Positions 1 through 30,473 of a stretch of DNA of 31,481 nt are shown in pieces. Source of the DNA: a virus; IMG/VR virus record IMGVR_UViG_3300032285_001741, positions 1 to 31,481 of that record; one strand, given 5' to 3'. A program made the position numbers and the translations under genes. The stretch's first letter is position 1; every line of letters starts with the position of its first letter. A model generated the notes under the pieces. The model was given only the letters and a program-made list of their open reading frames with translations. It had not been told where the DNA came from and did no database searches.

Positions 1-41
1 CTTTTTTGCACACGGCCGGGAAACCCGAGCGTTTTTGGATA

Positions 42-61
42 TTTGGCTCAACAGAGCCAAA
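42..61. other. Perfect 8-bp hairpin upstream of terminase small subunit
   Basis: TTTGGCTC and GAGCCAAA pair around an AACA tetraloop. The hairpin ends 16 bases before the small terminase ATG. No U-tract follows on either strand, so it is not a standard intrinsic terminator. A shorter CGGG-AAA-CCCG hairpin lies just before it at about 17-27. Hairpins beside terS can belong to the packaging (cos/pac) region or can shield the translation start; neither role can be decided here. Confidence 0.5.
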
Positions 62-77
62 AAGCGGGGGTTGTGTG

Positions 78-611
78 ATGGCGACGGGTCGGCCAGCTGG
101 ACGGCCTGCGAAGCCGTTGGCGCAGCATCGTGCGCTTGGCAATCCGAGCAAGAAGCATCTTCCGGCTGAGCCGACGCCAGAGTTTGCGCTTGCGGTTGTA
201 AAATCTGGTGACGTACCAAGTCCGCCGAGTTCGTTTGGTCGGGTTGCGCTTGAGGCGTGGGATCGGGTGTGGCGCTCGGGTCGTCGGTGGATGCATGATG
301 ATCAGGATCGGATCATCGTTGAGCGTTTGTGTCGGCGCCTAGATGAGATCGCAACGCTTGAGGCGTGGCTTGGTGAGGATGTGACGCGGCGCTGGTATGA
401 GACGGGTTCGGGTCAGATCAAGCCGCATCCGGCGGTTGCGCAGATCAAAGAGGCGGATGTGCAGATAACGGCGTGGCTTTCGATGCTCGGGTTTTCGCCG
501 AGTGATCGGGCGCGTCTTGGACTAGCGGAGATTCGAGTAGCGAATGAGCTTGATGAGTATCGGCAGCGGAAGGCCCGTGTGGTCGACGCCGTCGCTGTTT
601 CCGACGACTGA
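78..611 (+). CDS. terS: Terminase small subunit, P27 family
   Basis: This 177-residue protein should recognise the phage packaging site and load the large terminase on DNA. The N-terminus (GRPAGRPAKPLAQHRALGNP followed by SKKHLP) is the proline/basic signature of P27-type small terminases, and the rest is a helical region that ends in a charged segment. The ATG at 78 is chosen because the signature starts there; a GTG at 75 is directly adjacent, and the frame is open further upstream without family-like sequence. The 3' end overlaps the large terminase by 68 bases, which couples the two subunits. Family assignment is from motif recognition, not from a search. Confidence 0.88.
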   Translation: MATGRPAGRPAKPLAQHRALGNPSKKHLPAEPTPEFALAVVKSGDVPSPPSSFGRVALEAWDRVWRSGRRWMHDDQDRIIVERLCRRLDEIATLEAWLGEDVTRRWYETGSGQIKPHPAVAQIKEADVQITAWLSMLGFSPSDRARLGLAEIRVANELDEYRQRKARVVDAVAVSDD

Positions 612-2013
612 AGGTCCGTTCGTCGCGGATTTCGCGCGGTCGTTTCTGCATGCGTCGACGGGGATGCGTGCGGGCTCGGCGCTCGAGCTTGTGCCGTGGC
701 AGTCGTGGCTGATCGATCAGCTGTACGAGCGCCGGCCGGACGGGCTGCTGAGGTATCGGCGGAGCCTGGTCGGCATGCCTCGTAAGCAGGGCAAGTCGAT
801 GCTGGGATCGCTGATTGCGTTGTATGCGCTGATCGAGGGCGAGGACGGCGCGAAAGAGGTCTACAGCGCGGCGGGTGATCGACAGCAGGCGCGCATTGTG
901 TTTGGTGAGGCGAAACGGCAGATCAGCGCGTCGCCGGCGCTGAATGGGATCTGCAAGGTGTATCGCGACGTGATCGAGGTGCCGGCGACGGGTTCGATCT
1001 ATCGCGTGCTCTCGAGCGATGCAAAGTTGGCACAGGGCTATAACGCGAGTTGTGTGGTCTTTGACGAGCTGCACGTGCAGCCGAACTCGGATTTGTGGGA
1101 TGCGTTGACGCTCGGGTCGGGCGCTAGGCGCGACCCTCAGATCGTCGCCATCACGACGGCCGGGCATGACTTGAACACGATCTGTGGTCAGATGTATCAG
1201 TACGGGCAGCGCGTATGCGATGGCACGCTTGACGATGACGCGTTCGGATTCTTCTGGTGGGAAGCGCCCAAGGATTGTGACTTGCTGAGCGAGTCGGCCT
1301 GGCGCGAAGCGAACCCGAATCTTGACGAGGGCCTTCTCAGCCTAGACGACATGAAAGTCAGCGTGAAGCAGACCAATGAGATCGCGTTCCGCCGGTACCG
1401 ATTGAATCAGTGGGTCCGCGCGTCCGAGTCGTTCCTTCCGGCGGGAGCGTGGGACAAGTGCCGCAACAAAGATCTAGACATCGACCCCGATCTTCCAATC
1501 TTCCTCGGTATTGACATGGCGCTCAAGCACGATTCGATCGCGGTTGTGTGGGTTCAGCAGCAGGACGACGTGCTCGTGGCGCGATCAAAGATCTGGTTCC
1601 CTGAGGGTGACGCGATCGACGTGCAAGCGGTGGAGAACTTCATTCGCGAGCTGCATCAGTCGTATCGGATCGATGTTGCCGCGTTTGACCCGGCGTACTT
1701 TCTTAGGTCGGCTCAGGTCTTGGCGGATGATGGTGTGCCGATGGTGGAGTTTCCTCAGTCGGCGGCGCGGATGGTGCCAGCGTCGGGGACGCTTTTTGAG
1801 GAGATCGTGAATGGGCGCATTGCGCACTCGGGCGACAGCACGTTTGCGGATCAGGTTCTTTCGGCTACGCCTCGAGCGACCGATACGGGTTGGCGATTGT
1901 CGAAGGGCAGGAGCAAACGGAAGATCGATGCGGCTATTGCGCTTGCGATGGCGGTCGATGTTGCGTTGAAGCGTCGCGAGCCGGAAGTGGTTCCCGGCTT
2001 CTATTCGTGGTAG
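544..2013 (+). CDS. terL: Terminase large subunit, ATPase plus nuclease
   Basis: The packaging motor and genome-cutting enzyme, 489 residues, Terminase_1-like. Visible motifs are a deviant Walker A around residues 77-85 (GMPRKQGKS), Walker B CVVFDE at 170-175, and the TTAG coupling motif at 204-207. The C-terminal RNase H-like nuclease follows, with acidic residues D324 (LGIDMA), D382 (AFDPAYF) and D462 (DAAIALAMA). Both domains are complete. Several starts are possible in the overlap with terS; the first ATG at 544 is given, and ATG 553 is an alternative. The very short gap to the next gene fits a single packaging/head operon. Confidence 0.95.
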   Translation: MSLMSIGSGRPVWSTPSLFPTTEGPFVADFARSFLHASTGMRAGSALELVPWQSWLIDQLYERRPDGLLRYRRSLVGMPRKQGKSMLGSLIALYALIEGEDGAKEVYSAAGDRQQARIVFGEAKRQISASPALNGICKVYRDVIEVPATGSIYRVLSSDAKLAQGYNASCVVFDELHVQPNSDLWDALTLGSGARRDPQIVAITTAGHDLNTICGQMYQYGQRVCDGTLDDDAFGFFWWEAPKDCDLLSESAWREANPNLDEGLLSLDDMKVSVKQTNEIAFRRYRLNQWVRASESFLPAGAWDKCRNKDLDIDPDLPIFLGIDMALKHDSIAVVWVQQQDDVLVARSKIWFPEGDAIDVQAVENFIRELHQSYRIDVAAFDPAYFLRSAQVLADDGVPMVEFPQSAARMVPASGTLFEEIVNGRIAHSGDSTFADQVLSATPRATDTGWRLSKGRSKRKIDAAIALAMAVDVALKRREPEVVPGFYSW

Positions 2014-2196: not shown

Positions 2197-3543
2197 ATGC
2201 TCGGGAACCTGCTGCCGGGCGCTGAGAAGCGCGCGATCTCGTATCAGACGCTGTTTGCGTCGGGCGATTCGATCCTCTTCTCGACGAATTCCGGCGTTGT
2301 CATCAATGAGGAGAATGTCCTCAAGGTCAACGCGGTTTATGCGGCGGTTAGGATCATCGCGGATTCGATCTCGACGCTGCCGGTCGATACGTTCAAGCGC
2401 GTCAGCGGGACGCGCGTTCCGTATCGTCCGAAGCCCGAGTGGCTGGACATGCCCGAGATCGGCGTGACGTTTTCCGACTTGACGCAGGTCGCGCTTGTCT
2501 CGCTGCTGCTGAACGGCAATGCGTTCATTCGAATCCTGCGTGATGAGCGCGGCGTCGCTGGCCTGGTCGTGCTGAATCCGATCAAGGTGCAGGTGACGCG
2601 CACGTCGGATCAGACGCGACCGTTGTACATCTACGACAATCACACCACGATCACGCATGACGAGATGCTTCACATCAAGGAGCTCGTGATGCCTGGTCAG
2701 CAGCGCGGCAAGAGCCGGATCGAGCTCGTGAAGGAGAACCTCGGTCTTGCGTCTGCGCTCGAGCAGTTCGCGGCGCGATTCTTTTCGGGCGCGAACTCGA
2801 GCGGCATCATCGAATATCCCGGCAACCTGACGAAAGAGCAGGCGCTCGATCTCGCTTCGTCGTTTGAGAACGAGCACAAGGGGCTGCGGAAGTCTCACCG
2901 GACCGGCGTTCTCTTCGGTGGTGCAAAGTTTCAGCGGACGACGCCGGACAACAACACGAGTCAGTTCATTGAGTCGCGCAAGTTCGCGGTTGAGGAGATC
3001 GCGCGCGTCTTCCGCGTGCCGCCGTCGATGCTCGGTGTGATCGAGCCGGGCGCATCTTCGTACAACTCGCTCGAGCAGAACTCGATCAACTTCGTCGTGC
3101 ATACGCTCAGGCCGTATATCTACAAGCTGGAGCAGGCATTCACGCGTCTGCTGCCGCAGGGCGTTTTCGTGAAGTACAACGTCGACGGGTTGCTCCGTGG
3201 TGACACGGCCGCACGATCCGCCTACTACGCAAGCGCGATTCAGAACGGCTACATGAGCATCAATCAGGTTCGCGCGCTCGAGGACGCTGCGCCCGTCGAC
3301 GGTGGTGACGAGCTGCGCGTGCCGCTGCACTCCGTTGACCTTGGCGCGGCGAACATCGCCGAGATCGACAAAAAGACCACGATCGCGCAGCGCCTGATCC
3401 AGGCGGGTTTCGAGCCTGCGGCCGTGCTCGAGTCGCTCGGGTTGCCGCCGATCGCGCACACGGGCCTGCCGACCGTGATGCTTCAGCCCGTCGCGCAGGT
3501 CGATCCCGAAAACCCGCAGGCCGCGTACGAGGTGCAGAGCTAA
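2197..3543 (+). CDS. Portal protein, HK97 family
   Basis: This 448-residue protein forms the dodecameric ring at the unique capsid vertex through which DNA enters and leaves. HK97-type portal features are seen in order: the N-terminal KVNAVYAAVRIIADSISTLP segment, the GNAFIRILRD stretch with VVLNPIKVQV, the HIKELVMPGQQRGKSRIEL motif, and the FRVPPSMLGVIEPGASSYNS region with SINFVVHTLRPYIYKLEQAF near the clip/wing. Length is normal for the family. The stop codon TAA shares its last base with the ATG of the protease fusion gene, so translation is coupled. Confidence 0.94.
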   Translation: MLGNLLPGAEKRAISYQTLFASGDSILFSTNSGVVINEENVLKVNAVYAAVRIIADSISTLPVDTFKRVSGTRVPYRPKPEWLDMPEIGVTFSDLTQVALVSLLLNGNAFIRILRDERGVAGLVVLNPIKVQVTRTSDQTRPLYIYDNHTTITHDEMLHIKELVMPGQQRGKSRIELVKENLGLASALEQFAARFFSGANSSGIIEYPGNLTKEQALDLASSFENEHKGLRKSHRTGVLFGGAKFQRTTPDNNTSQFIESRKFAVEEIARVFRVPPSMLGVIEPGASSYNSLEQNSINFVVHTLRPYIYKLEQAFTRLLPQGVFVKYNVDGLLRGDTAARSAYYASAIQNGYMSINQVRALEDAAPVDGGDELRVPLHSVDLGAANIAEIDKKTTIAQRLIQAGFEPAAVLESLGLPPIAHTGLPTVMLQPVAQVDPENPQAAYEVQS

Positions 3544-5360
3544 TGCCCGACATCATCGTCAGCGACGTGGACGACACGATTCTCCGCAACGGTCGCGAGC
3601 CAATCGACAAGACGATCGCGTTCTTGAACGATTCGGATGTGCCCGTGGTGATCGTGACGGGCCGGACCGAGGATGAGCGCGACGAGACCGCCGCCCAGCT
3701 TGAGGCCGCTGGTGTCGAGTACGCGATGCTGATGACGAATAACACGGATGCGGGCACGCTTGATTACAAGCGCTCGACGATGCGAAGCCTGCTTGAGAAG
3801 TTCGACGTTGTGCTTGCCGTCGACAACGACGCTGATGTGCGCGCCGCCTATGCCGATCTTGGCGTAGAGGCGGTTGACCCGACTGATCTGCCCGACGCGG
3901 TGCGCGCCGACGCGGGCTCCTACGTTCCCGACATGCCCAGTATCGAGCAGAAAGCCCTTCCGATGGATCCCGACCAGACGACCGAAGATGCCCTGGAGGC
4001 CACAGAAGGCCCCGAAACCCTCTGCCAGCTTCTCGCCGAGCAGCTGTCCGATGTCGTCGCGTTCAAGTTCATCGCGCACGGCTATCACTGGAACGTCAAG
4101 GGATCTCAGTTCACCGAGTATCACTCGCTCTTCGGAATGATTTACGAGGATGCGAACGAGTCGATCGACCCGCTTGCGGAGAACATTCTCAAGCTCGGCT
4201 ACGACGCGCCGTTCCGCCTGTCGGACTTTCAGCAGCTGCGCGAGCTGGATGAGCCGGCGCTGACGCCGGACACGCCGGCCGCGATGGCCGCGAGCCTGCT
4301 CGATCTCAACGATGACATCATCGATGGGTACAACGAGGCGTACGCGCAGTCTCAGGTTGAGAATCAGCAGGGCGTCGCAAACTTCCTTGCAGAGCGCATC
4401 GATGCGCATCAGAAGTGGGCGTGGCAGCTTCGCTCGAGTATCGGCGCACAGGCGCAGGTGCTGATGCAGCCGGTCGAGAACAAGGTTCCGGCTGAGACGG
4501 GCGAGACGGTGGAGATGATGGACGCGACCGGCATGACGGATCAGATTGATCCCGTCGGTGCGGTTGTGCCTGACTCAAAGATTCGCAGCGTCACGAAGAT
4601 CGCGCGTCCCGTTGAGTACGACGCGCCGACGACGCGCGCGAAGCAGGATGAGCAGGGCGTTGAGCATCGTGTGATGGAGCACGCCAACATTGAGATTCGC
4701 GAAATGACGGACGCTGCTGATGCTGGCGGGATGACGTTCTACGGGTACGCCGCCGTGTTCAACTCGCCGTCTGAGCCGCTGCCGTTTACCGAGACGATCG
4801 CGCCTGGCGCATTCTCGCGAACGCTGAAGGCTCGCAACGAAGTGAAGCTGCTGATGAATCACGACACGGGCCGCGTTCTCGCATCGCGCCGCGCTGGCAC
4901 GCTTCGCCTTAGCGAGGACGCTACGGGACTCCGCGTTGAGGCTGACCTGCCCGACACAAGCGACGGCCGTGATCTCGCCTACCTGCTGAAGCGTGGCGAC
5001 ATCACCACCATGAGCTTCGGATTCACGGTTCCCGCCGGCGGCGACTACTGGTCGGACGAGAACAATCGTCAGCTCCGCGACGTGCGCTTGCACGAAGTGT
5101 CGATCGCGCCGTACGCCGCTTACCCCGCATCGATGGCAAACGTTCGAAGCGTCGACATGCTGGCCGACAAGACCGGCCTCAATGCTGACACGCTGGCCGA
5201 GGCGATGAACGCGCTCGAGCGCGGCGACAAGCTCACCGATGAGCAGGCCGCCGTGCTTGAGGAGAGCGTCGCGAAGCTGCGCGATCACAAGCCTCAGCCG
5301 TCTCCGAGCATTGCCGAGCTGCAGGCTCAGCTCGAGTCTAAGCTGCACGCCGCCGCCTAG
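3543..5360 (+). CDS. HAD phosphatase + Dps ferritin-like + HK97 prohead protease (S78) fusion
   Basis: A single 605-residue ORF with three recognisable domains, about 2.5 times the usual prohead protease length. Residues 3-115 are a HAD phosphatase: DVDDT (D8, D10, T12), VTGR with T39, K77, and hhhhDxxxD at D94/D98. Residues 157-303 are a Dps/ferritin four-helix domain. H182, H194, D209 and E213 have exactly the spacing of the E. coli Dps ferroxidase ligands H51, H63, D78 and E82. Residues 375-537 are a peptidase S78 domain with LLMNHD (H440), MSFGF (S491) and LHEVSIAPYAAYP (E518 as likely third residue). The linkers are Pro/Glu-rich. The gene sits in the standard protease position between portal and capsid. 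The protease call is firm, Dps is strong, HAD is good; the joint function is unknown. Confidence 0.9.
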   Translation: MPDIIVSDVDDTILRNGREPIDKTIAFLNDSDVPVVIVTGRTEDERDETAAQLEAAGVEYAMLMTNNTDAGTLDYKRSTMRSLLEKFDVVLAVDNDADVRAAYADLGVEAVDPTDLPDAVRADAGSYVPDMPSIEQKALPMDPDQTTEDALEATEGPETLCQLLAEQLSDVVAFKFIAHGYHWNVKGSQFTEYHSLFGMIYEDANESIDPLAENILKLGYDAPFRLSDFQQLRELDEPALTPDTPAAMAASLLDLNDDIIDGYNEAYAQSQVENQQGVANFLAERIDAHQKWAWQLRSSIGAQAQVLMQPVENKVPAETGETVEMMDATGMTDQIDPVGAVVPDSKIRSVTKIARPVEYDAPTTRAKQDEQGVEHRVMEHANIEIREMTDAADAGGMTFYGYAAVFNSPSEPLPFTETIAPGAFSRTLKARNEVKLLMNHDTGRVLASRRAGTLRLSEDATGLRVEADLPDTSDGRDLAYLLKRGDITTMSFGFTVPAGGDYWSDENNRQLRDVRLHEVSIAPYAAYPASMANVRSVDMLADKTGLNADTLAEAMNALERGDKLTDEQAAVLEESVAKLRDHKPQPSPSIAELQAQLESKLHAAA

Positions 5361-5438: not shown

Positions 5439-5459
5439 CCACCCGAGGAGCCTCGGTGG
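5439..5459 (+). promoter_or_regulatory. Leader hairpin before capsid gene
   Basis: CCAC (5439-5442) pairs with GTGG (5456-5459) and CGAG (5444-5447) with CTCG (5452-5455), with one bulged C and a GAGC loop. The stem hides the alternative GTG start at 5456 together with its GGAG, leaving the SD and ATG at 5501 free. It may stabilise the capsid message or tune its translation. Confidence 0.4.
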
Positions 5460-5500: not shown

Positions 5501-6703
5501 ATGTCCGCAGATTTCCTGAAGCAGCAGGTGGAAGGCCGTCAGGCCGCCTGGCACGAGGCCAAGCACCTGCTCGACACGGCAGCCGCCGAAAACCGCGACC
5601 TCACCCTCGAGGAGCGCGAGCAGTACGACCGCATCAACGCTGATCTTGACGAGCGCGCCGCGCTGATCGAGAAGGTCAAGGCCGACGAGAAGCGCGAGGA
5701 GCGCATCGGCAAGGCCATCGAGGGCATGGAGCGCGTCGTGCGCGACGCCAAGGCCAACGGCACCGACGCGGACGTGCTCCGCGCGATGGCAAAGGGCGAC
5801 ATCCGCTCGCACCTGTTCGGTCCCGAGACCCGCGACGTCTACTCGACGTCGACCGGCGCCCCGGTGCCCACGTCGTTCTACGACCAGGTCATTCTGCTTG
5901 CCCGTTACACAGGACCCATGCTTGATCCTGCCGTAACTTCGCATATCACCACCGCTGGTGGTGAGGCGCTGCAGATCCCAAGCCTCGCTTCGTACTCGGC
6001 CGGCACCGCGTTCGCTCAGGGCAGCGCGATCGGCGAGTCCGACACGATCTTCAACAGCTTCGTCACGCTGAACGCGTACAAGTACGCGTTCATCACGCAG
6101 CTGTCGCAGGAGCTGCTCCAGGACGCCGGCGTCGACATCCAGGCGCTGCTGGCGGAGAACACCGCCAACGGCCTCGGCTACTCGGTCGGCAACAAGCTCA
6201 CCGTCGGCACCGGCACCGTCGAGCCGAAGGGCATCGTCGCGGCTGCTGGCTCGGGCATCACGGGCGGCACGGGTGTCTCCGGCACCTTCACGGCTGCCAA
6301 CATCCTTGACCTGATCTGGAGCGTCGACACCGCCGCGCGTATGCGCCCGGGCGCCGGCTTCATGATGAACGCGTCGAGCATCTCGAAGGTGCGCCAGCTC
6401 CAGTCGAGCGGCGGCTACTACATCTTCAGCCCCGCCGCCTCGGCCGACCAGCGCGACCTGATCGGTGGCTACCCGGTCTTCGAGAACCCGCACATGGTGT
6501 CGACGGGCACGTCGGCCAAGTCGGTCATCTTCGGCGACCTCAAGAGCTACATGGTGCGCATCGCCGGCGGCGGCATCCAGATGGATCGCTCCGACGAGTT
6601 CGCCTTCAACCAGGGCCTCGTGACCTACCGCTCGATGATCCGCGTGGACGGGAATCTCCCGCAGTCCAGCCACGTCAAGTACTTCGTCGGCGCTGCTTCC
6701 TAG
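5501..6703 (+). CDS. Major capsid protein, HK97 fold, with N-terminal delta domain
   Basis: This 400-residue shell protein has HK97-type architecture. Residues 1-100 are a charged helical region (LLDTAAAENRDLTLEEREQY, then NADLDERAALIEKVKADEKR) like the HK97 delta scaffold that the protease removes. The capsid core follows: VPTSFYDQVILLARYTGPML, EALQIPSLASYS, a long FVTLNAYKYAFITQLSQELL helix, and a C-terminus ending in VTYRSMIRVDGNLPQSSHVK. No separate scaffolding gene is visible, as expected with a fused delta domain. ATG 5501 has GGAG seven bases upstream. A GTG at 5456 also has GGAG but lies in a hairpin, and its extra 15 residues look unstructured, so 5501 is preferred. Confidence 0.93.
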   Translation: MSADFLKQQVEGRQAAWHEAKHLLDTAAAENRDLTLEEREQYDRINADLDERAALIEKVKADEKREERIGKAIEGMERVVRDAKANGTDADVLRAMAKGDIRSHLFGPETRDVYSTSTGAPVPTSFYDQVILLARYTGPMLDPAVTSHITTAGGEALQIPSLASYSAGTAFAQGSAIGESDTIFNSFVTLNAYKYAFITQLSQELLQDAGVDIQALLAENTANGLGYSVGNKLTVGTGTVEPKGIVAAAGSGITGGTGVSGTFTAANILDLIWSVDTAARMRPGAGFMMNASSISKVRQLQSSGGYYIFSPAASADQRDLIGGYPVFENPHMVSTGTSAKSVIFGDLKSYMVRIAGGGIQMDRSDEFAFNQGLVTYRSMIRVDGNLPQSSHVKYFVGAAS

Positions 6704-6779: not shown

Positions 6780-8024
6780 ATGAATCGTGCTCATCGACGC
6801 GCCACCGGCGCAACCAGCACCAAGAATGGACCCGCCAAAAAGTCGGCGACGAGTCCGCTCCGAATCACCTGGTGCAGCAACAGCCCGCTCGTCGCCACCG
6901 GCTACGGAACGCAGACGGCACAAGTTACGCGCCGCATGCACAACGCTGGCCACGAAGTCGCCGTAGCGTGCAACTACGGCCTTGAGGGCTCTTCGATGAA
7001 TTGGGAAGGGATACACGTATATCCGCGTGGCCTTGCCAACTACAGCGAAGACGTGATGGTCGCGTATTCGATGCATTGGGCGTCACAGAATCCGGCGGCG
7101 AAGAGCGTGCTGTTCACGTTGTATGACGTGTGGGTCTACAACCAGAATCCGAGTCTCAAGACGATCCCGCGGATTTACAGTTGGGTTCCCGTAGATCATC
7201 AGCCCGCACCACCACAAGTGCTGGAGTGGTGCAAGCGCGACAACGTCACGCCAATCGCGATGAGCAAGTTCGGCAAGGACATGCTTGAGCTGGACGGTGT
7301 CAAGTGCGAGTACATTCCGCACGCGATCGAGCCCGTCTTCAAGCCGACGCTCACGATTGATGGGCCGATGGGTCGTCAGACGCCGCGCGAGCTGCTCGGC
7401 ATTCCCAACGACGCGTTCGTCGTGATGATGAACAGCGCGAACAAGGGCGTCACGCCGTGTCGGAAGGCATTCGGCCAGGCAATCCTCGCATTCAGCATCT
7501 TCGCGCTTGAGCATCCCGACGCGATCCTCTACCTGCACACCGAGGACACGGGCGCGATGAGTGGCATCAACCTGCGAGAGCTGCTCAAGGCCGCGAGTGT
7601 CAAGCCGGAGCAGGTTCGTTTTGTGGATCAGTTCGCGTATCGGTTGGGCATTCCGCAGGAGACGCTGGCCGCGTTCTACACGATGAGCGACGTATTGCTT
7701 GCGCCGAGCATGGGCGAGGGCTTCGGCATCCCGGTCATTGAGGCGCAGGCTTGCGGGTTGCCGGTGATCGTCAGTGACTTCTCGGCGCAGCCCGAGCTTG
7801 TGGGCGATGGTTGGACGGTCGCGGGCCAGCCCGAATGGGACGCGATGCAGACCTCGTGGTTCTTCACGCCACACGTTGGCGCCATCGTTGACGCGCTGAA
7901 CAAGGCGTACCAGGCTGAGCGCGGACCGAGCGACAAAGCGATTGAGTTTGCCGCTGACTACGCGGCCGACAAGGTTTTTGCTGAGTCGTGGAAGCCGCTG
8001 CTGGAGAAGGCGGCGAACGAGTGA
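6780..8024 (+). CDS. Glycosyltransferase, GT4-like (GT-B fold)
   Basis: A 414-residue retaining-type glycosyltransferase. The N-terminal Rossmann domain has VATGYGTQTAQVTRRMHNAG, where the glycine loop contacts the acceptor and nucleotide sugar. The C-terminal donor domain has DVLLAPSMGEGFGIPVIEAQ with the E-x7-E pair E313/E321. The first 25 residues (MNRAHRRATG...) are basic and Thr/Lys-rich and look like an added tail. A good GGAGA lies before the ATG. It heads a four-gene cassette placed between capsid and connector genes, so virion proteins are the likely acceptors; the sugar is unknown. DNA or host glycan modification is an alternative. Confidence 0.88.
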   Translation: MNRAHRRATGATSTKNGPAKKSATSPLRITWCSNSPLVATGYGTQTAQVTRRMHNAGHEVAVACNYGLEGSSMNWEGIHVYPRGLANYSEDVMVAYSMHWASQNPAAKSVLFTLYDVWVYNQNPSLKTIPRIYSWVPVDHQPAPPQVLEWCKRDNVTPIAMSKFGKDMLELDGVKCEYIPHAIEPVFKPTLTIDGPMGRQTPRELLGIPNDAFVVMMNSANKGVTPCRKAFGQAILAFSIFALEHPDAILYLHTEDTGAMSGINLRELLKAASVKPEQVRFVDQFAYRLGIPQETLAAFYTMSDVLLAPSMGEGFGIPVIEAQACGLPVIVSDFSAQPELVGDGWTVAGQPEWDAMQTSWFFTPHVGAIVDALNKAYQAERGPSDKAIEFAADYAADKVFAESWKPLLEKAANE

Positions 8025-8683
8025 TTACGACCGTCGTCATGCCGGTGCTCAACGGGTACGACTTGCTCAAGCGCAGCATTGGATCGCTGCCGGATTCGGT
8101 GCGGAACGTGCTGATTATCGACAATGGTGATTGCCTGAGCCGGTGGGATTTGGACGAGCTCTCGCACCCCGGCCTGCGTCTTCTCAGCATGCCGTCGAAT
8201 CTGGGCGTGCCGCAGTCGTGGAACCTCGGCATCAAGCTCTATCCGCACGAGCCCGGCTGGCTCTTGATGAATCACGACGCGTGGTTCGGTGAGGGAGCGT
8301 GGGAGCGATTCTCAGCGGACGTGGGGGAGGATCGCATCACGCTCGCCGGTAGCCCGCCGTGGTGCTGCGCGTGGATCGGTCGCGGCGTCGTCGATCGCGT
8401 CGGATTGTTCTGCGAAGCGTTCTACCCCGCCTACATGGAAGACGTGGACTACGAGCGTCGCGCTCGAGCACTCGGCATTCCCGTCGAGACGAGCACGGCC
8501 ACGGTCGGGCACGACAACTCCAGCACGATCCGCTCAGACGAGCGCCTGCTGCGCCGAAACGACGCATCGCACGCGCGTAACGCGGCCATTTACGACAATC
8601 GATGGCACGGCCTGCACGACCACGAAGTACCCGCGCAGCTCGATTGGAGCCTGTATCAGCGGACGGTGAACCGGTGGGACTAG
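8021..8683 (+). CDS. Glycosyltransferase, GT2-like (GT-A fold)
   Basis: A 220-residue protein with the GT-A fold of family 2, similar to rhamnosyltransferase-like enzymes. ITTVVMPVLNGYDLLKRSI opens the nucleotide-binding half. The DxD-position motif reads NHD at residues 84-86, and the acceptor/base motif YMEDVDYERRARALG (E140, D141, D143) is well conserved. The GTG at 8021 is chosen because it overlaps the preceding stop as GTGA and the homology starts there. Coupled translation with the GT4 gene suggests successive sugar additions on the same glycan. Confidence 0.85.
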   Translation: MITTVVMPVLNGYDLLKRSIGSLPDSVRNVLIIDNGDCLSRWDLDELSHPGLRLLSMPSNLGVPQSWNLGIKLYPHEPGWLLMNHDAWFGEGAWERFSADVGEDRITLAGSPPWCCAWIGRGVVDRVGLFCEAFYPAYMEDVDYERRARALGIPVETSTATVGHDNSSTIRSDERLLRRNDASHARNAAIYDNRWHGLHDHEVPAQLDWSLYQRTVNRWD

Positions 8684-9261
8684 ACCTCACGCATCCGCGC
8701 AGCACCGAGCTGGGACCTGCGGCGCCCGTTCCGATTCTGCAGCGCGAGTGGGAGTTCGACACGCTGCTGCATATCTACGCGGATAAGAAGCCGAAGCGTG
8801 TTCTTGAGATTGGCACGTATCACGGCGGCACGCTCTTTCACTGGTTATCGACGCATGCGCCAGAAACGGTCGTCGCGGTCGACTCGTATCAGACCGGCGT
8901 CGACAATCGGCACCTCTTTCACGAGTGGGCAACCGAGCACGACTCCAAACTCGTGATCGTTCAGGGCGATTCGATGCATCCCGACACGGTCGCGGCCGTT
9001 GCCGAGCACGCGCCGTTTGATTGGGTTTGGATTGACGCGGGTCATTTTGAGCACGAAGCACAAGCCGATTGGGACAATTACGGCAGTCTCTGCGCGCCTG
9101 GCGGGATCGTCTGCCTGCACGACATTCTCACGCACCCGTCGCATCCAGCGATCGAGGTTGAGCCCGTCTGGCGACGCATCCAATCCTCGGGGTACTTGAC
9201 GCGCGAGCTCGTCGCCGACCCGCACGCGGAGTGGGGCGGTATCGGAGTCGTCTACCTGTGA
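8674..9261 (+). CDS. SAM-dependent methyltransferase, class I (Methyltransf_24 / CmcI-like)
   Basis: A 195-residue Rossmann methyltransferase. VLEIGTYHGGTLFHW (residues 43-57) is the SAM-binding motif I, AVDSYQ (D70) is motif II, and WIDAGHFEHEAQADWDNYGS followed by LCAPGGIVCLHDIL is the signature region of cephalosporin-hydroxylase-like or sugar O-methyltransferases. The start GTG 8674 overlaps the GT2 stop by 10 bases; upstream codons in this frame are Arg/Pro-rich and unlike the family. In this cassette it plausibly methylates a sugar added by the neighbouring transferases, which would cap the glycan. The substrate is inferred from context only. Confidence 0.82.
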   Translation: MGLDLTHPRSTELGPAAPVPILQREWEFDTLLHIYADKKPKRVLEIGTYHGGTLFHWLSTHAPETVVAVDSYQTGVDNRHLFHEWATEHDSKLVIVQGDSMHPDTVAAVAEHAPFDWVWIDAGHFEHEAQADWDNYGSLCAPGGIVCLHDILTHPSHPAIEVEPVWRRIQSSGYLTRELVADPHAEWGGIGVVYL

Positions 9262-27230: not shown

Positions 27231-27715
27231 CGCCGGCCGCCGTCATCATCTCGCTCGACGTATCCGAACGACGTATCGGATATGCCGTCCTCGAGTACGA
27301 CTCCGGCAAGTGCGTCGAAACCGGCGTTATACACACACCGGCCGGTGACGACCTCAACACCCGCGTCCAAGCCTGGCACACCATCAGCCACGCAGCCAAC
27401 CAGACCGGCGACATCGAGCTCGTACTCATCGAAGCACCATGGTCGGGTCCTAACCGGCAAGGCTCAATCAGAGGCGCAATGGCCGTCGGCAACGTCGCCG
27501 GCATCGCAGCCTCGCGCCTCGGCCGCTCTGTATTGGTCGACACGATCCAACCAACCCAATGGCGCAGCCTCTGCGGACTTCCCACACGAGGCAAAGAACC
27601 CGTCATGACATGGGCAACACAAGTCCTAGGCCGAAGCGTCACCCAAGACGAAGCCGACGCACTCGGCATCGCCACCGCCGCACACCACATCGCATGGAAC
27701 AGGAGCAACCCGTGA
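27227..27715 (+). CDS. RuvC-like Holliday junction nuclease
   Basis: A 162-residue RNase H-fold nuclease. IISLDVSERRIGYAVLEYD carries the first catalytic aspartate (D11), VLIEAPWSGPNRQGSIRGAM the glutamate (E69), and TQDEADALGIATAAHHIAW the last acidic pair (D141, D144), in the order and spacing of RuvC. It probably resolves branched intermediates in replicating or recombining phage DNA before packaging. The second GTG of GTC-GTG is taken as start because it overlaps the upstream stop (GTGA). Confidence 0.82.
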   Translation: MTPAAVIISLDVSERRIGYAVLEYDSGKCVETGVIHTPAGDDLNTRVQAWHTISHAANQTGDIELVLIEAPWSGPNRQGSIRGAMAVGNVAGIAASRLGRSVLVDTIQPTQWRSLCGLPTRGKEPVMTWATQVLGRSVTQDEADALGIATAAHHIAWNRSNP

Positions 27716-28578
27716 ACGCCATCACGACAGACGATCACTGGGTGTACGTCCTTTACGCGCCGCAAACGCGACGAATCAAGATCGGACGAAGCAAGACCGA
27801 ACACGGCTGCGAAGACCGGCTGCGCAGCTGCCAAACCGGCAGCCCCGAACCGCTCCACCTCATCGGCATCTTCGAGCCGGGAACGCATCCTGGCGAAAAG
27901 GCTATTCACTCCGAGCTTGCGGCAGCGCGCGTGCACGGCGAATGGTTCTCATGCGAACGACACACCATTTACGAACTTGAGGGCATCGTCGGCCGCGATC
28001 GCCTCGCATGGCCGACGCTGATCAGCAACCCGATCAAGATCGCGCCGACCGATTACACAATTGAACGCGGGGCCGTATGCGTCGATCGCGAACCGTTTGA
28101 GGTCGACATTCGCGGCAAGATTGGCGATCACACACGCACCGGATACCTCTACACGTCATACGCGATCGAATACGAAGCACTAAGCGACGACTACGACGCT
28201 TGCGAACACGATCCGTTCTATCCGTACGACAAATGGCGCGATTGGGCACGCTCGTACGCACTAAAGAATCCTCACAAGCCAGGCATACCGATCTATTGGT
28301 CTATCTGCGGATGCGGGACAGACGCCGACCATCCAAGCGCTTACGACCATTTTCGGGACATCAGCAACGGCGAAAACCATTGGAACAAGTTCTTCCACAA
28401 GCCAACCCGTCGCGACCGCAAGCCATTTCTATTTGCGGACCTCCCAATGCATGTCAAGCGATGGCATCCCGACTTCGCCCAGCACAAAGGCGGATTCATC
28501 GAAGAGTTCACCGGCTTCCGCCCCAGCTATCTACAGCCGTGGGTAACGCTTTCGCAGATCGAAGGAGTCAAAGGGTGA
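27712..28578 (+). CDS. MUG113 / GIY-YIG-like protein with unknown C-terminus
   Basis: A 288-residue protein. Residues 9-85 form a T5orf172/MUG113 domain related to GIY-YIG nucleases: WVYVLYA (GIY position), RIKIGRS (YIG position), EDRLRSCQTG (R36), and AIHSELAAARVHGEWF. The 200-residue C-terminal part has several aromatic and Cys/Asp-rich segments (DDYDACEHDPFYPYDKWRDW; SICGCGTDADHPSAYDHF) and is not recognised. Such proteins are scattered among phages and are suspected DNA-cutting or host-attacking factors. GTG overlaps the RuvC-like stop. Confidence 0.75.
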   Translation: MNAITTDDHWVYVLYAPQTRRIKIGRSKTEHGCEDRLRSCQTGSPEPLHLIGIFEPGTHPGEKAIHSELAAARVHGEWFSCERHTIYELEGIVGRDRLAWPTLISNPIKIAPTDYTIERGAVCVDREPFEVDIRGKIGDHTRTGYLYTSYAIEYEALSDDYDACEHDPFYPYDKWRDWARSYALKNPHKPGIPIYWSICGCGTDADHPSAYDHFRDISNGENHWNKFFHKPTRRDRKPFLFADLPMHVKRWHPDFAQHKGGFIEEFTGFRPSYLQPWVTLSQIEGVKG

Positions 28579-30473
28579 CGAGCCTGCAGACCGAGGCGGT
28601 CAAGTACACGACGCTAGGTTGGGGCGTCATCCGCCTACACCACGTCCTTGAGGACGGCTCGTGCAGCTGCAGACGCGCCGACTGCTCCTCAATCGGTAAG
28701 CACCCGCTCGACCCTAAAGGCGCCAGCCTGCCCGAGCACGACTATGAGAAAGTCCAGCGCCTCTGGGAACAAACCCCCGACGCCAATATCGGCATCGTCG
28801 CCGGCACAAGCAACCTTCTGATCCTCGACTTCGACTCTGACGAAGCCCGCGAACGCTTCAAGCAAATCGCCGACCAGGACACGCTCGAACTCCTACGCCG
28901 CAACCCCATCGTCAAAACCGGCCGCGGCTGGCACATCTACCTCGAAGACCCAACCGGCGGATACTCACCAAGCGTCGGCACCAACGGCGACGCCGGCATC
29001 GACATCCGCGCCGGCGTCTCCTACGTCGTCGCACCACCATCAAATCACGCAAGCGGCAACGACTACACCTGGATCCAATACCCCAAGGATCCGCCCGAAC
29101 CACCCACGCCATGGCTTGACGCATACATCCGCAACCGATACGACAAGCCCGTCCGCATCTACGAAGACGGCGACAAGATCATCACCGGCGGACGCAACAA
29201 AGAACTCGCAAGCCTCGCCGGGACCATGCGCCGCCGCGGATTCACCGAAGGCGCCATCCGCGCAGCTCTCCTTGAGGAAAACGAAAAGCGCGTCGACCCG
29301 CCACTCAGCACAAGCGAAGTCGAAAGCATCGCGCACTCAATCGCCAAGCACCCGCCACAAGACGTACCCCTCGACAACAACCGCCACGACATCGAAACCG
29401 TCGTCGCAGAGATCGAAGAACGCGGCGACGAACCCAAATACAAGTTCCTCAACCTCGACGAAATCAACGCGCTCCCAGACATCCAATACCTCGTCGACGG
29501 ACTCCTACCCATCAACGGCTACGGCATCGTCTACGGCCGCCGAGGCAGCGGCAAGACATTCGAAATGCTTCACCTATCGCTCTGCATCGCCACCGGCAAG
29601 GCGTATCGCGGCCACAAGGTCCAGCAAGGCGGCGTCGCCTACATCATGAGCGAAGGCGCAGCAGGCCTCAAAAAGCGTATCGCAGCCTGGATGAAGCACC
29701 ACCAAGTCGACCAGCTTGAAAACTTCTACGCGCTCACACACAGCGTCCAGCTAAACGATCCCGAGCTACGCGCACACCTCGACATCGCGATCGAGCGTAT
29801 CCCCGCAGACGTTCGACTCCTCGTCATCGACACACTCGCACGCAGCGTCAGCGGACTCGACGAGAACAGCTCAGCCGACATGACACGCTTCATCGGCTAC
29901 GTCGACGAGATCCGCCAACGCCGAAGCCTTGCCGTCGTACCCGTACACCACGCCGGCTGGAACGACGGACACGAGCGCGGCTCAACCGTCATCGGCGACG
30001 CCGCCGATTGGATCTGCAAAGTCGCCAAAGAAGACGACAAAGTCATCGTCAAAACCGAAAAAGTCAAAGACGACGAACTACCCAAACCGCTCCGCCTCGA
30101 CCTCGTACCCGTCGACGGCACCGGCAGCGTCATCCTCGAAGAAGTCGAAGAAGAGACAATCCAAGACGAGCTCGTCGACGCCATCATCCAAATCGTCCAA
30201 ACGCAACAGAACATCACCGAGAAGGACCTCCTCAAACTGCTCGACGAGCGCAACATCAAGGCATCTCAGAACACCATCAAAAACCGCATCGAGCGATCGC
30301 CAGGCGCGTTCAAGTACAAGCGCGTCGAACGCGTTGAAGGGACCGCGCCCGACAAGAAAGGCACGCTACGAGCGTGCATGATCTGGCGAATACGACCCGC
30401 CGAGATCAGCACCATCGGCACCGTCGACGACCCCTTCGCAGACCCCAATCTGAGCGCCGAAGAGGCCGCATGA
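28575..30473 (+). CDS. Primase-polymerase (AEP) fused to RecA-like helicase
   Basis: A 632-residue replication protein. Residues 1-185 are a Prim-Pol domain: LLILDFDSDE gives the D85/D87 metal pair, TGRGWHIYLE the histidine (H120), and GIDIRAGVSYVVAPPS the third acidic residue D143. A small Cys/His cluster (C30, C32, C37, H43) is inserted near the start, as often in Prim-Pol. Residues 205-262 resemble a primase C-terminal helical domain. The helicase domain has GRRGSGKT (321-328), LLVIDT (415-420) and VPVHHAGW. It should open DNA and make primers at the origin; the iteron cluster begins right after its stop. Confidence 0.9.
   Translation: MTSLQTEAVKYTTLGWGVIRLHHVLEDGSCSCRRADCSSIGKHPLDPKGASLPEHDYEKVQRLWEQTPDANIGIVAGTSNLLILDFDSDEARERFKQIADQDTLELLRRNPIVKTGRGWHIYLEDPTGGYSPSVGTNGDAGIDIRAGVSYVVAPPSNHASGNDYTWIQYPKDPPEPPTPWLDAYIRNRYDKPVRIYEDGDKIITGGRNKELASLAGTMRRRGFTEGAIRAALLEENEKRVDPPLSTSEVESIAHSIAKHPPQDVPLDNNRHDIETVVAEIEERGDEPKYKFLNLDEINALPDIQYLVDGLLPINGYGIVYGRRGSGKTFEMLHLSLCIATGKAYRGHKVQQGGVAYIMSEGAAGLKKRIAAWMKHHQVDQLENFYALTHSVQLNDPELRAHLDIAIERIPADVRLLVIDTLARSVSGLDENSSADMTRFIGYVDEIRQRRSLAVVPVHHAGWNDGHERGSTVIGDAADWICKVAKEDDKVIVKTEKVKDDELPKPLRLDLVPVDGTGSVILEEVEEETIQDELVDAIIQIVQTQQNITEKDLLKLLDERNIKASQNTIKNRIERSPGAFKYKRVERVEGTAPDKKGTLRACMIWRIRPAEISTIGTVDDPFADPNLSAEEAA

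Follow-up and report, generated by a model that had tools for sequence, protein, structure and literature searches.

Heads of tailed phages are usually seen as shells with DNA, and ejection proteins are carried in a few large phages. The stretch of DNA analysed here (the window, 31,481 nucleotides) comes from a small phage, and its head maturation protease gene raises the question of why such a protease carries two further enzyme domains and where these may act. The first-pass annotation had reported one uninterrupted 605-codon frame joining a HAD phosphatase, a Dps ferritin and an S78 prohead protease. Both the frame and the identities were borne out, as no stop interrupts positions 3543-5360 and profiles from Pfam, PHROGs and NCBIfam identified the domains, HAD and Dps included. 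Its motif positions were right for D8, D10, T12, T39, D94, D98, H440 and S491, but the HAD lysine is K76 and not K77. The locus comprises the following features.

6-611, plus strand: small terminase subunit (phrog_83, 6e-24)
544-2013, plus strand: large terminase subunit (phrog_9, 1e-113)
2197-3543, plus strand: portal protein (phrog_12, 3e-94)
3543-5360, plus strand: HAD-Dps-S78 fusion gene, head maturation protease precursor (one open frame, 605 aa, with profile matches)
3552-3914, plus strand: HAD phosphatase domain, predicted PNKP 3'-phosphatase type, residues 4-124 (D8, D10, T12, T39, R41, K76, D94, D98)
3915-4013, plus strand: linker 1, acidic, residues 125-157 (pLDDT <50 at 121-141)
4014-4457, plus strand: Dps ferritin domain, residues 158-305 (ferroxidase ligands H182, H194, D209, E213)
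4458-4682, plus strand: linker 2, net acidic, residues 306-380 (317-360 disordered, dN/dS 0.45-0.50)
4683-5162, plus strand: S78 prohead protease domain, residues 381-540 (H440, S491)
5163-5357, plus strand: C-terminal helical segment, residues 541-605 (AlphaFold2 model)
5501-6703, plus strand: HK97-type major capsid protein (phrog_10, 6e-48)

The fusion gene directly follows the portal gene, whose TAA overlaps its ATG by one base (TAATG), and precedes the major capsid gene; the canonical portal-capsid position claimed earlier is thus confirmed by phrog_12 upstream and phrog_10 downstream. The claim that this is the only maturation protease of the phage also holds, since no second S78 match, and likewise no second Dps or HAD match, was found elsewhere in the window. 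The capsid reading frame opens mechanically at a GTG at 5456, and the ATG at 5501, with GGAG before it, is the likelier start. The capsid protein has a helical, delta-domain-like N-terminal extension of about 110 aa. Connector and tail genes are present beside terminase and portal. The interval from the capsid gene to the head-tail connector (6780-9261) contains two glycosyltransferases and a methyltransferase-like gene, which are found in the same place in Pontimonas phage phiPsal1 and in most relatives having proteases with HAD, Dps or the M1 module described below; perhaps they serve capsid glycosylation. Far downstream, a Prim-Pol / AAA primase-helicase occupies 28200-30473, and its N-terminal open frame is overlapped by a GIY-YIG-like T5orf172 protein (27559-28578).

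Profile matches were strong for the protease part, with Peptidase_S78 on residues 389-536 (Pfam, E=1e-40; 140 bits against a cut-off of 21) and TIGR01543 (NCBIfam, 112.5 against a cut-off of 59). Pfam Ferritin matched residues 162-299 (E=8e-17) and the HAD-type family Acid_phosphat_B residues 25-99 (E=9e-7). Among PHROGs, the protein matched head maturation protease (8e-47), Dps-type DNA-binding protein (2e-22) and, on residues 19-124, the polynucleotide kinase phrog_415 (3e-13). Moreover, a profile of the HAD family found Pnkp1 (2e-5) and T4 Pnkp among PDB sequences. Residues 125-157, which run on from the HAD domain to the Dps domain, are acidic, and a basic N-terminal tail is absent. In E. 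coli Dps such a tail binds DNA, and it is not present in all Dps members.

An assembly chimera or frame error was considered and rejected. The same HAD-Dps-S78 order was repeated in contigs of other metagenomes at 86, 76 and about 44% identity, and third-position GC was even along the 605 codons and close to that of the flanking genes. Hence, the fusion is real and no artefact of assembly.

Structure prediction, which the first-pass annotation had proposed as a check, yielded three globular domains of high confidence joined by disordered linkers. The single-chain AlphaFold2 model, for which 66 locus proteins were aligned, had a mean pLDDT of 82 (HAD about 94, Dps about 96, S78 about 92). The pLDDT of the linkers at 121-141 and 317-360 was below 50 and pTM was 0.41, suggesting that the three domains have no fixed mutual orientation. 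The Dps domain was modelled as a ferritin-like four-helix bundle with a short BC helix, and in a fold search it matched dodecameric Dps structures with Z about 22 and rmsd 1.3-2.1 Å over about 145 residues; all of its close structural matches assemble as dodecamers. Dps matches dominated this search, which therefore gave little information on HAD and S78. For a relative with M1-HAD-DUF5824-M3-S78 architecture (L097), the best PDB match of the model was the T4 Pnkp 3'-phosphatase 5uj0, and its protease part matched the T4 gp21 capsid protease 5jbl among the next families. According to this fold match and the profiles above, the HAD domain of the window is predicted to be of the polynucleotide kinase 3'-phosphatase type.

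Purifying selection acts on all three domains. Against the two nearest relatives, L001 and L002, dN/dS was 0.10 and 0.25 for HAD, 0.06 and 0.16 for Dps, and 0.16 and 0.17 for S78, and linker 2 was weakly constrained (0.45 and 0.50). Over all loci, H194, D209 and E213 were kept in 122 of 122 Dps domains, including 51 of 51 fused to S78; D8, D10, T12, R41 and K76 were kept in every one of 84 HAD domains; and the S78 domains retained S491 in 117/117 and H440 in 116/117. H182 and D94 belonged to the locus search patterns, and their conservation is therefore partly built in, while the other sites are unbiased. The ferroxidase site of Dps is formed between two subunits, so that conservation of its ligands argues for an assembled, active Dps. 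In the comparison of window 3543-5357 with L001, dS was 0.22-0.26 over HAD and Dps and 0.6-0.8 over S78 and the C-terminus. This threefold lower synonymous divergence suggests that the HAD-Dps block may have been exchanged as a unit, perhaps recently.

The first-pass annotation knew of no described system with this architecture. This stands for GenBank phages and open-licence PMC papers, but the architecture is recurrent, and a candidate reading of it as unique to the window phage was discarded in view of dozens of HAD/Dps-S78 fusion frames in IMG/VR. Five IMG/VR scans gave 272 loci, chosen by motif, and counts of frames were made after removal of near-duplicates. A search for homologues with the same domain order, also proposed by that annotation, found 21 non-redundant HAD-Dps-S78 frames, the window included. 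In addition, there were 22 Dps-S78 frames, one frame of S78-Dps order (L256) and about 30 HAD-S78 frames that lack Dps. Of 108 non-redundant S78 frames, 87 have the portal gene before and the capsid gene after them, the others being mostly cut contigs. The linker between Dps and S78 was net acidic in all 43 frames of that order.

The N-terminal halves of these proteases are combinatorial, with HAD, Dps, DUF5824, a four-cysteine module and two modules named M1 (DUF2188-like, about 50 aa) and M3 (helical, about 100 aa, overlapping phrog_2859, without a Pfam name) in many orders. M3 shows the pattern PxY..AA.RGL..GGDGL..TI.EAR..K..AW.ARH..LWG and is common in head-locus proteins (L002, L056, L067, L096-L116). 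The four-cysteine module, CGNC...C...C, was found in protease N-termini of L084 (3809-5260), L098, L116 and L153, one case weakly resembling high-potential iron-sulfur proteins. In one Dps-S78 group (L252, L264, L240), the long spacer between the two domains contains a Hva1_TUDOR-like domain.

Such interchange raises the possibility that the N-terminal half acts as a pro-region in the control of the protease (its folding, inhibition until assembly, or targeting), and that the identity of the domains hardly matters. HAD, Dps, M1, M3, DUF5824 and the four-cysteine module do replace each other in many combinations, and more than 150 residues precede S78 in 74 of the 98 uncut S78 frames of our sample. 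However, catalytic and metal sites are kept across module swaps, bare S78 without any N-terminal extension occurs in the closely related L107-L109, and Dps stands after S78 in L256. We regard a pure pro-region as very unlikely.

Alternatively, the role of Dps may be structural: its oligomers (12-mer cage or dimers) would gather proteases inside the prohead, as an assembly core or a device for copy number, HAD being a passenger and iron chemistry secondary. This would agree with the dodecamers formed by all close structural matches, with the absence of a separate scaffold gene between protease and capsid gene, and with the other helical modules that replace Dps at many protease N-termini of the family. 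A mere scaffold would not need the invariant ferroxidase ligands, though; many relatives in similar phages lack Dps and have HAD-S78 or bare S78, and other phages have a standalone Dps beside the portal. Such a structural role is therefore quite unlikely in our estimation.

HAD and Dps were also found near head genes in other arrangements. Among 111 non-redundant Dps ORFs, 44 were fused to S78 and 38 were the next gene after the portal; for 22, no recognised head gene lay within about 4 kb. At 51 loci, a standalone Dps starts 15-62 bp past the end of a phrog_776-type portal; the ORF after such Dps genes (L009-L080, e.g. L029:3974-4435) often exceeds 1000 codons and matches no PHROG. In L141, L160 and L165, HAD is a gene of its own that separates S78 from the capsid gene; L179 (438-3155) and L183 (2813-5443) have a portal-HAD-M3 fusion ahead of a separate S78 gene. 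Dps presence changes at least seven times on a quick tree of S78. A test of whether the first two Dps groups, that of the window and that of L003/L004, arose as one clade rejected this (p-AU 0.013) on an S78 alignment that is short and gives uneven tree support.

Further fusions were seen. In head proteins of about 1600-1700 residues (L008:257-5413, L020:2-4885, L034:2-4945), M3 is close to the N-terminus and Dps close to the C-terminus, and the part between them is weakly S78-like or virion-structural. L022 (3740-6151) joins Dps to a zeta-toxin-type kinase domain, which also matches a minor head protein family. In L040, L044-L058 and others, a Dps-DUF5824 fusion directly follows the portal; DUF5824 is probably head-associated, since it is found inside S78 proteases too.

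These arrangements bear on a third possibility, that HAD and Dps are auxiliary stress enzymes of the infected cell, which ride on a highly expressed late gene and act before assembly or after cleavage. Standalone Dps and catalase of gut phages have been proposed to shield the infected host (PMC8008677), and a Lactobacillus phage Dps adjoins replication genes (PMC6669764). The 22 Dps ORFs away from recognised head genes fit this role as well. However, the fusion partners are repeatedly head proteins (the protease on either side, and the portal), unfused cases follow the portal, and a random auxiliary gene would not re-enter this slot at least seven times. A role confined to the infected cell thus appears unlikely. 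That HAD and Dps are fused to, or adjoin, protease and portal in many lineages argues instead for action in or through the head.

On balance, we think it probable, with some reserve, that the gene encodes a prohead protease precursor whose N-terminal half, HAD plus Dps, is enzymatic cargo for the head. The protease of HK97, gp4, is established to enter the prohead. In accordance with this, the S78 part of the window protein would co-assemble into the prohead and bring HAD and Dps inside. The activated protease would then cut the N-terminal extension of the capsid protein and its own linkers, which are disordered, acidic and weakly conserved and thus may be natural cut sites. Folded HAD and Dps would be too large or too protease-resistant to exit with the peptides, and would remain with the packaged genome and possibly enter the next host. 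Dps would oxidise and sequester Fe(II), which would prevent hydroxyl-radical (Fenton) damage, and the PNKP-type phosphatase would strip 3'-phosphates from DNA ends. Such 3'-phosphates are the typical blocked ends of radical strand breaks. Together, HAD and Dps may form one DNA-care kit against oxidative damage.

Loading as cargo is favoured by three folded domains in one frame at the protease locus, by conserved catalytic or metal-binding residues in all three, and by the recurrence of HAD and Dps fused to or beside head genes in many phages. Against it, PNKP-type HAD domains may have other substrates, the segment before Dps is acidic and has no basic tail of the E. coli Dps type, and a fifth or so of the Dps ORFs lie apart from recognised head genes as counted above. 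Moreover, fragments of HK97-type proteases are generally expected to leave the head (PMC10052503), and cargo might be lost with them.

Small phages of about 31 kb appear to devote more than 1 kb, repeatedly, to iron-oxidising and DNA-end-processing enzymes on a protease that enters the prohead, and the recurrence in dozens of uncultured phages suggests that protective enzymes are loaded into the head by protease fusion. If the domains are in the virion, they would offer a simple route for enzyme loading into phage heads. They could then also explain how virions survive oxidative stress in sunlit water, and the phage head would be the viral analogue of ferritin-loaded encapsulins, whose shells share the HK97 fold. 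A wider proposition, plausible although somewhat short of probable, is that tailed phages have a widespread, undescribed cargo-loading strategy, in which enzymes fused to the protease or portal end up in virions, where they guard and mend the packaged DNA, as a viral counterpart of such encapsulins.

The HAD-Dps-S78 architecture is apparently undescribed, and its likely relatives in UniProt bear only the name 'Prohead protease'. No GenBank phage record covered the fusion: 538 records matched, and among the matches listed essentially all did so through S78 alone. No nucleotide relatives of the window were found among GenBank phages; with the HAD-Dps half, the sole tblastn match there was a cyanophage Dps, and one scan of bacterial genomes gave nothing beyond distant Dps genes. 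Searches of open-licence PMC papers found none that describes a prohead protease with fused Dps or HAD, and none that treats DUF5824. The best BFVD match was a 763-residue UniProt entry 'Prohead protease' from an uncultured phage (A0A6J7WPK9; 640 columns, 36%), which, judged by alignment, probably shares the architecture.

Compared with known systems, the window protein shares with HK97-family prohead proteases (PF04586 / TIGR01543, MEROPS S78) the domain, the catalytic His and Ser, the portal-capsid position and a capsid protein with an N-terminal extension, but adds about 380 N-terminal residues comprising two enzyme domains. The closest cultured or GenBank S78 relative among the matches listed is the prohead protease of phiPsal1 (AUV61415.1, 484 aa), with 48% identity over residues 381-579. 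The gene order of that phage is the same, including the glycosyltransferases after the capsid gene, but its protease begins with M1, the four-cysteine module and M3, without HAD or Dps. phiPsal1 was a minor contig in the culture of a marine Microbacteriaceae strain (PMC6106888). The Dps domain resembles dodecameric ferritins such as P. aeruginosa PA0962 and L. innocua Dps in fold (Z about 22) and ferroxidase ligands; unlike free Dps, it is embedded mid-protein without a basic DNA-binding tail. The HAD domain shares its motifs with the 3'-phosphatase domain of T4 polynucleotide kinase, the best fold match of its family, and with bacterial Pnkp1; unlike the T4 enzyme, it has no kinase domain and is joined to a capsid protease.

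The internal or ejection proteins of T4 and phiKZ-like phages likewise travel in the head and are cut by the maturation protease, as is proposed here for HAD and Dps, but they are encoded by separate genes and have propeptides (PMC10052503), whereas in the window cargo and protease form one chain. Finally, the window phage would resemble encapsulins with ferritin-like cargo in combining an HK97-fold shell with a ferroxidase enzyme brought inside. Fusion-FLP of P. furiosus and IMEF of Firmicutes are ferroxidase cargo inside encapsulins, once by fusion to the shell protein, and IMEF resembles Dps (PMC11202242). In contrast to these, the shell of the window phage is part of a complete phage head, encoded along with terminase, portal, connector and tail genes, and the enzymes would ride on the protease and not on the shell; the likeness is a convergent arrangement, and the window phage is no member of the encapsulins.
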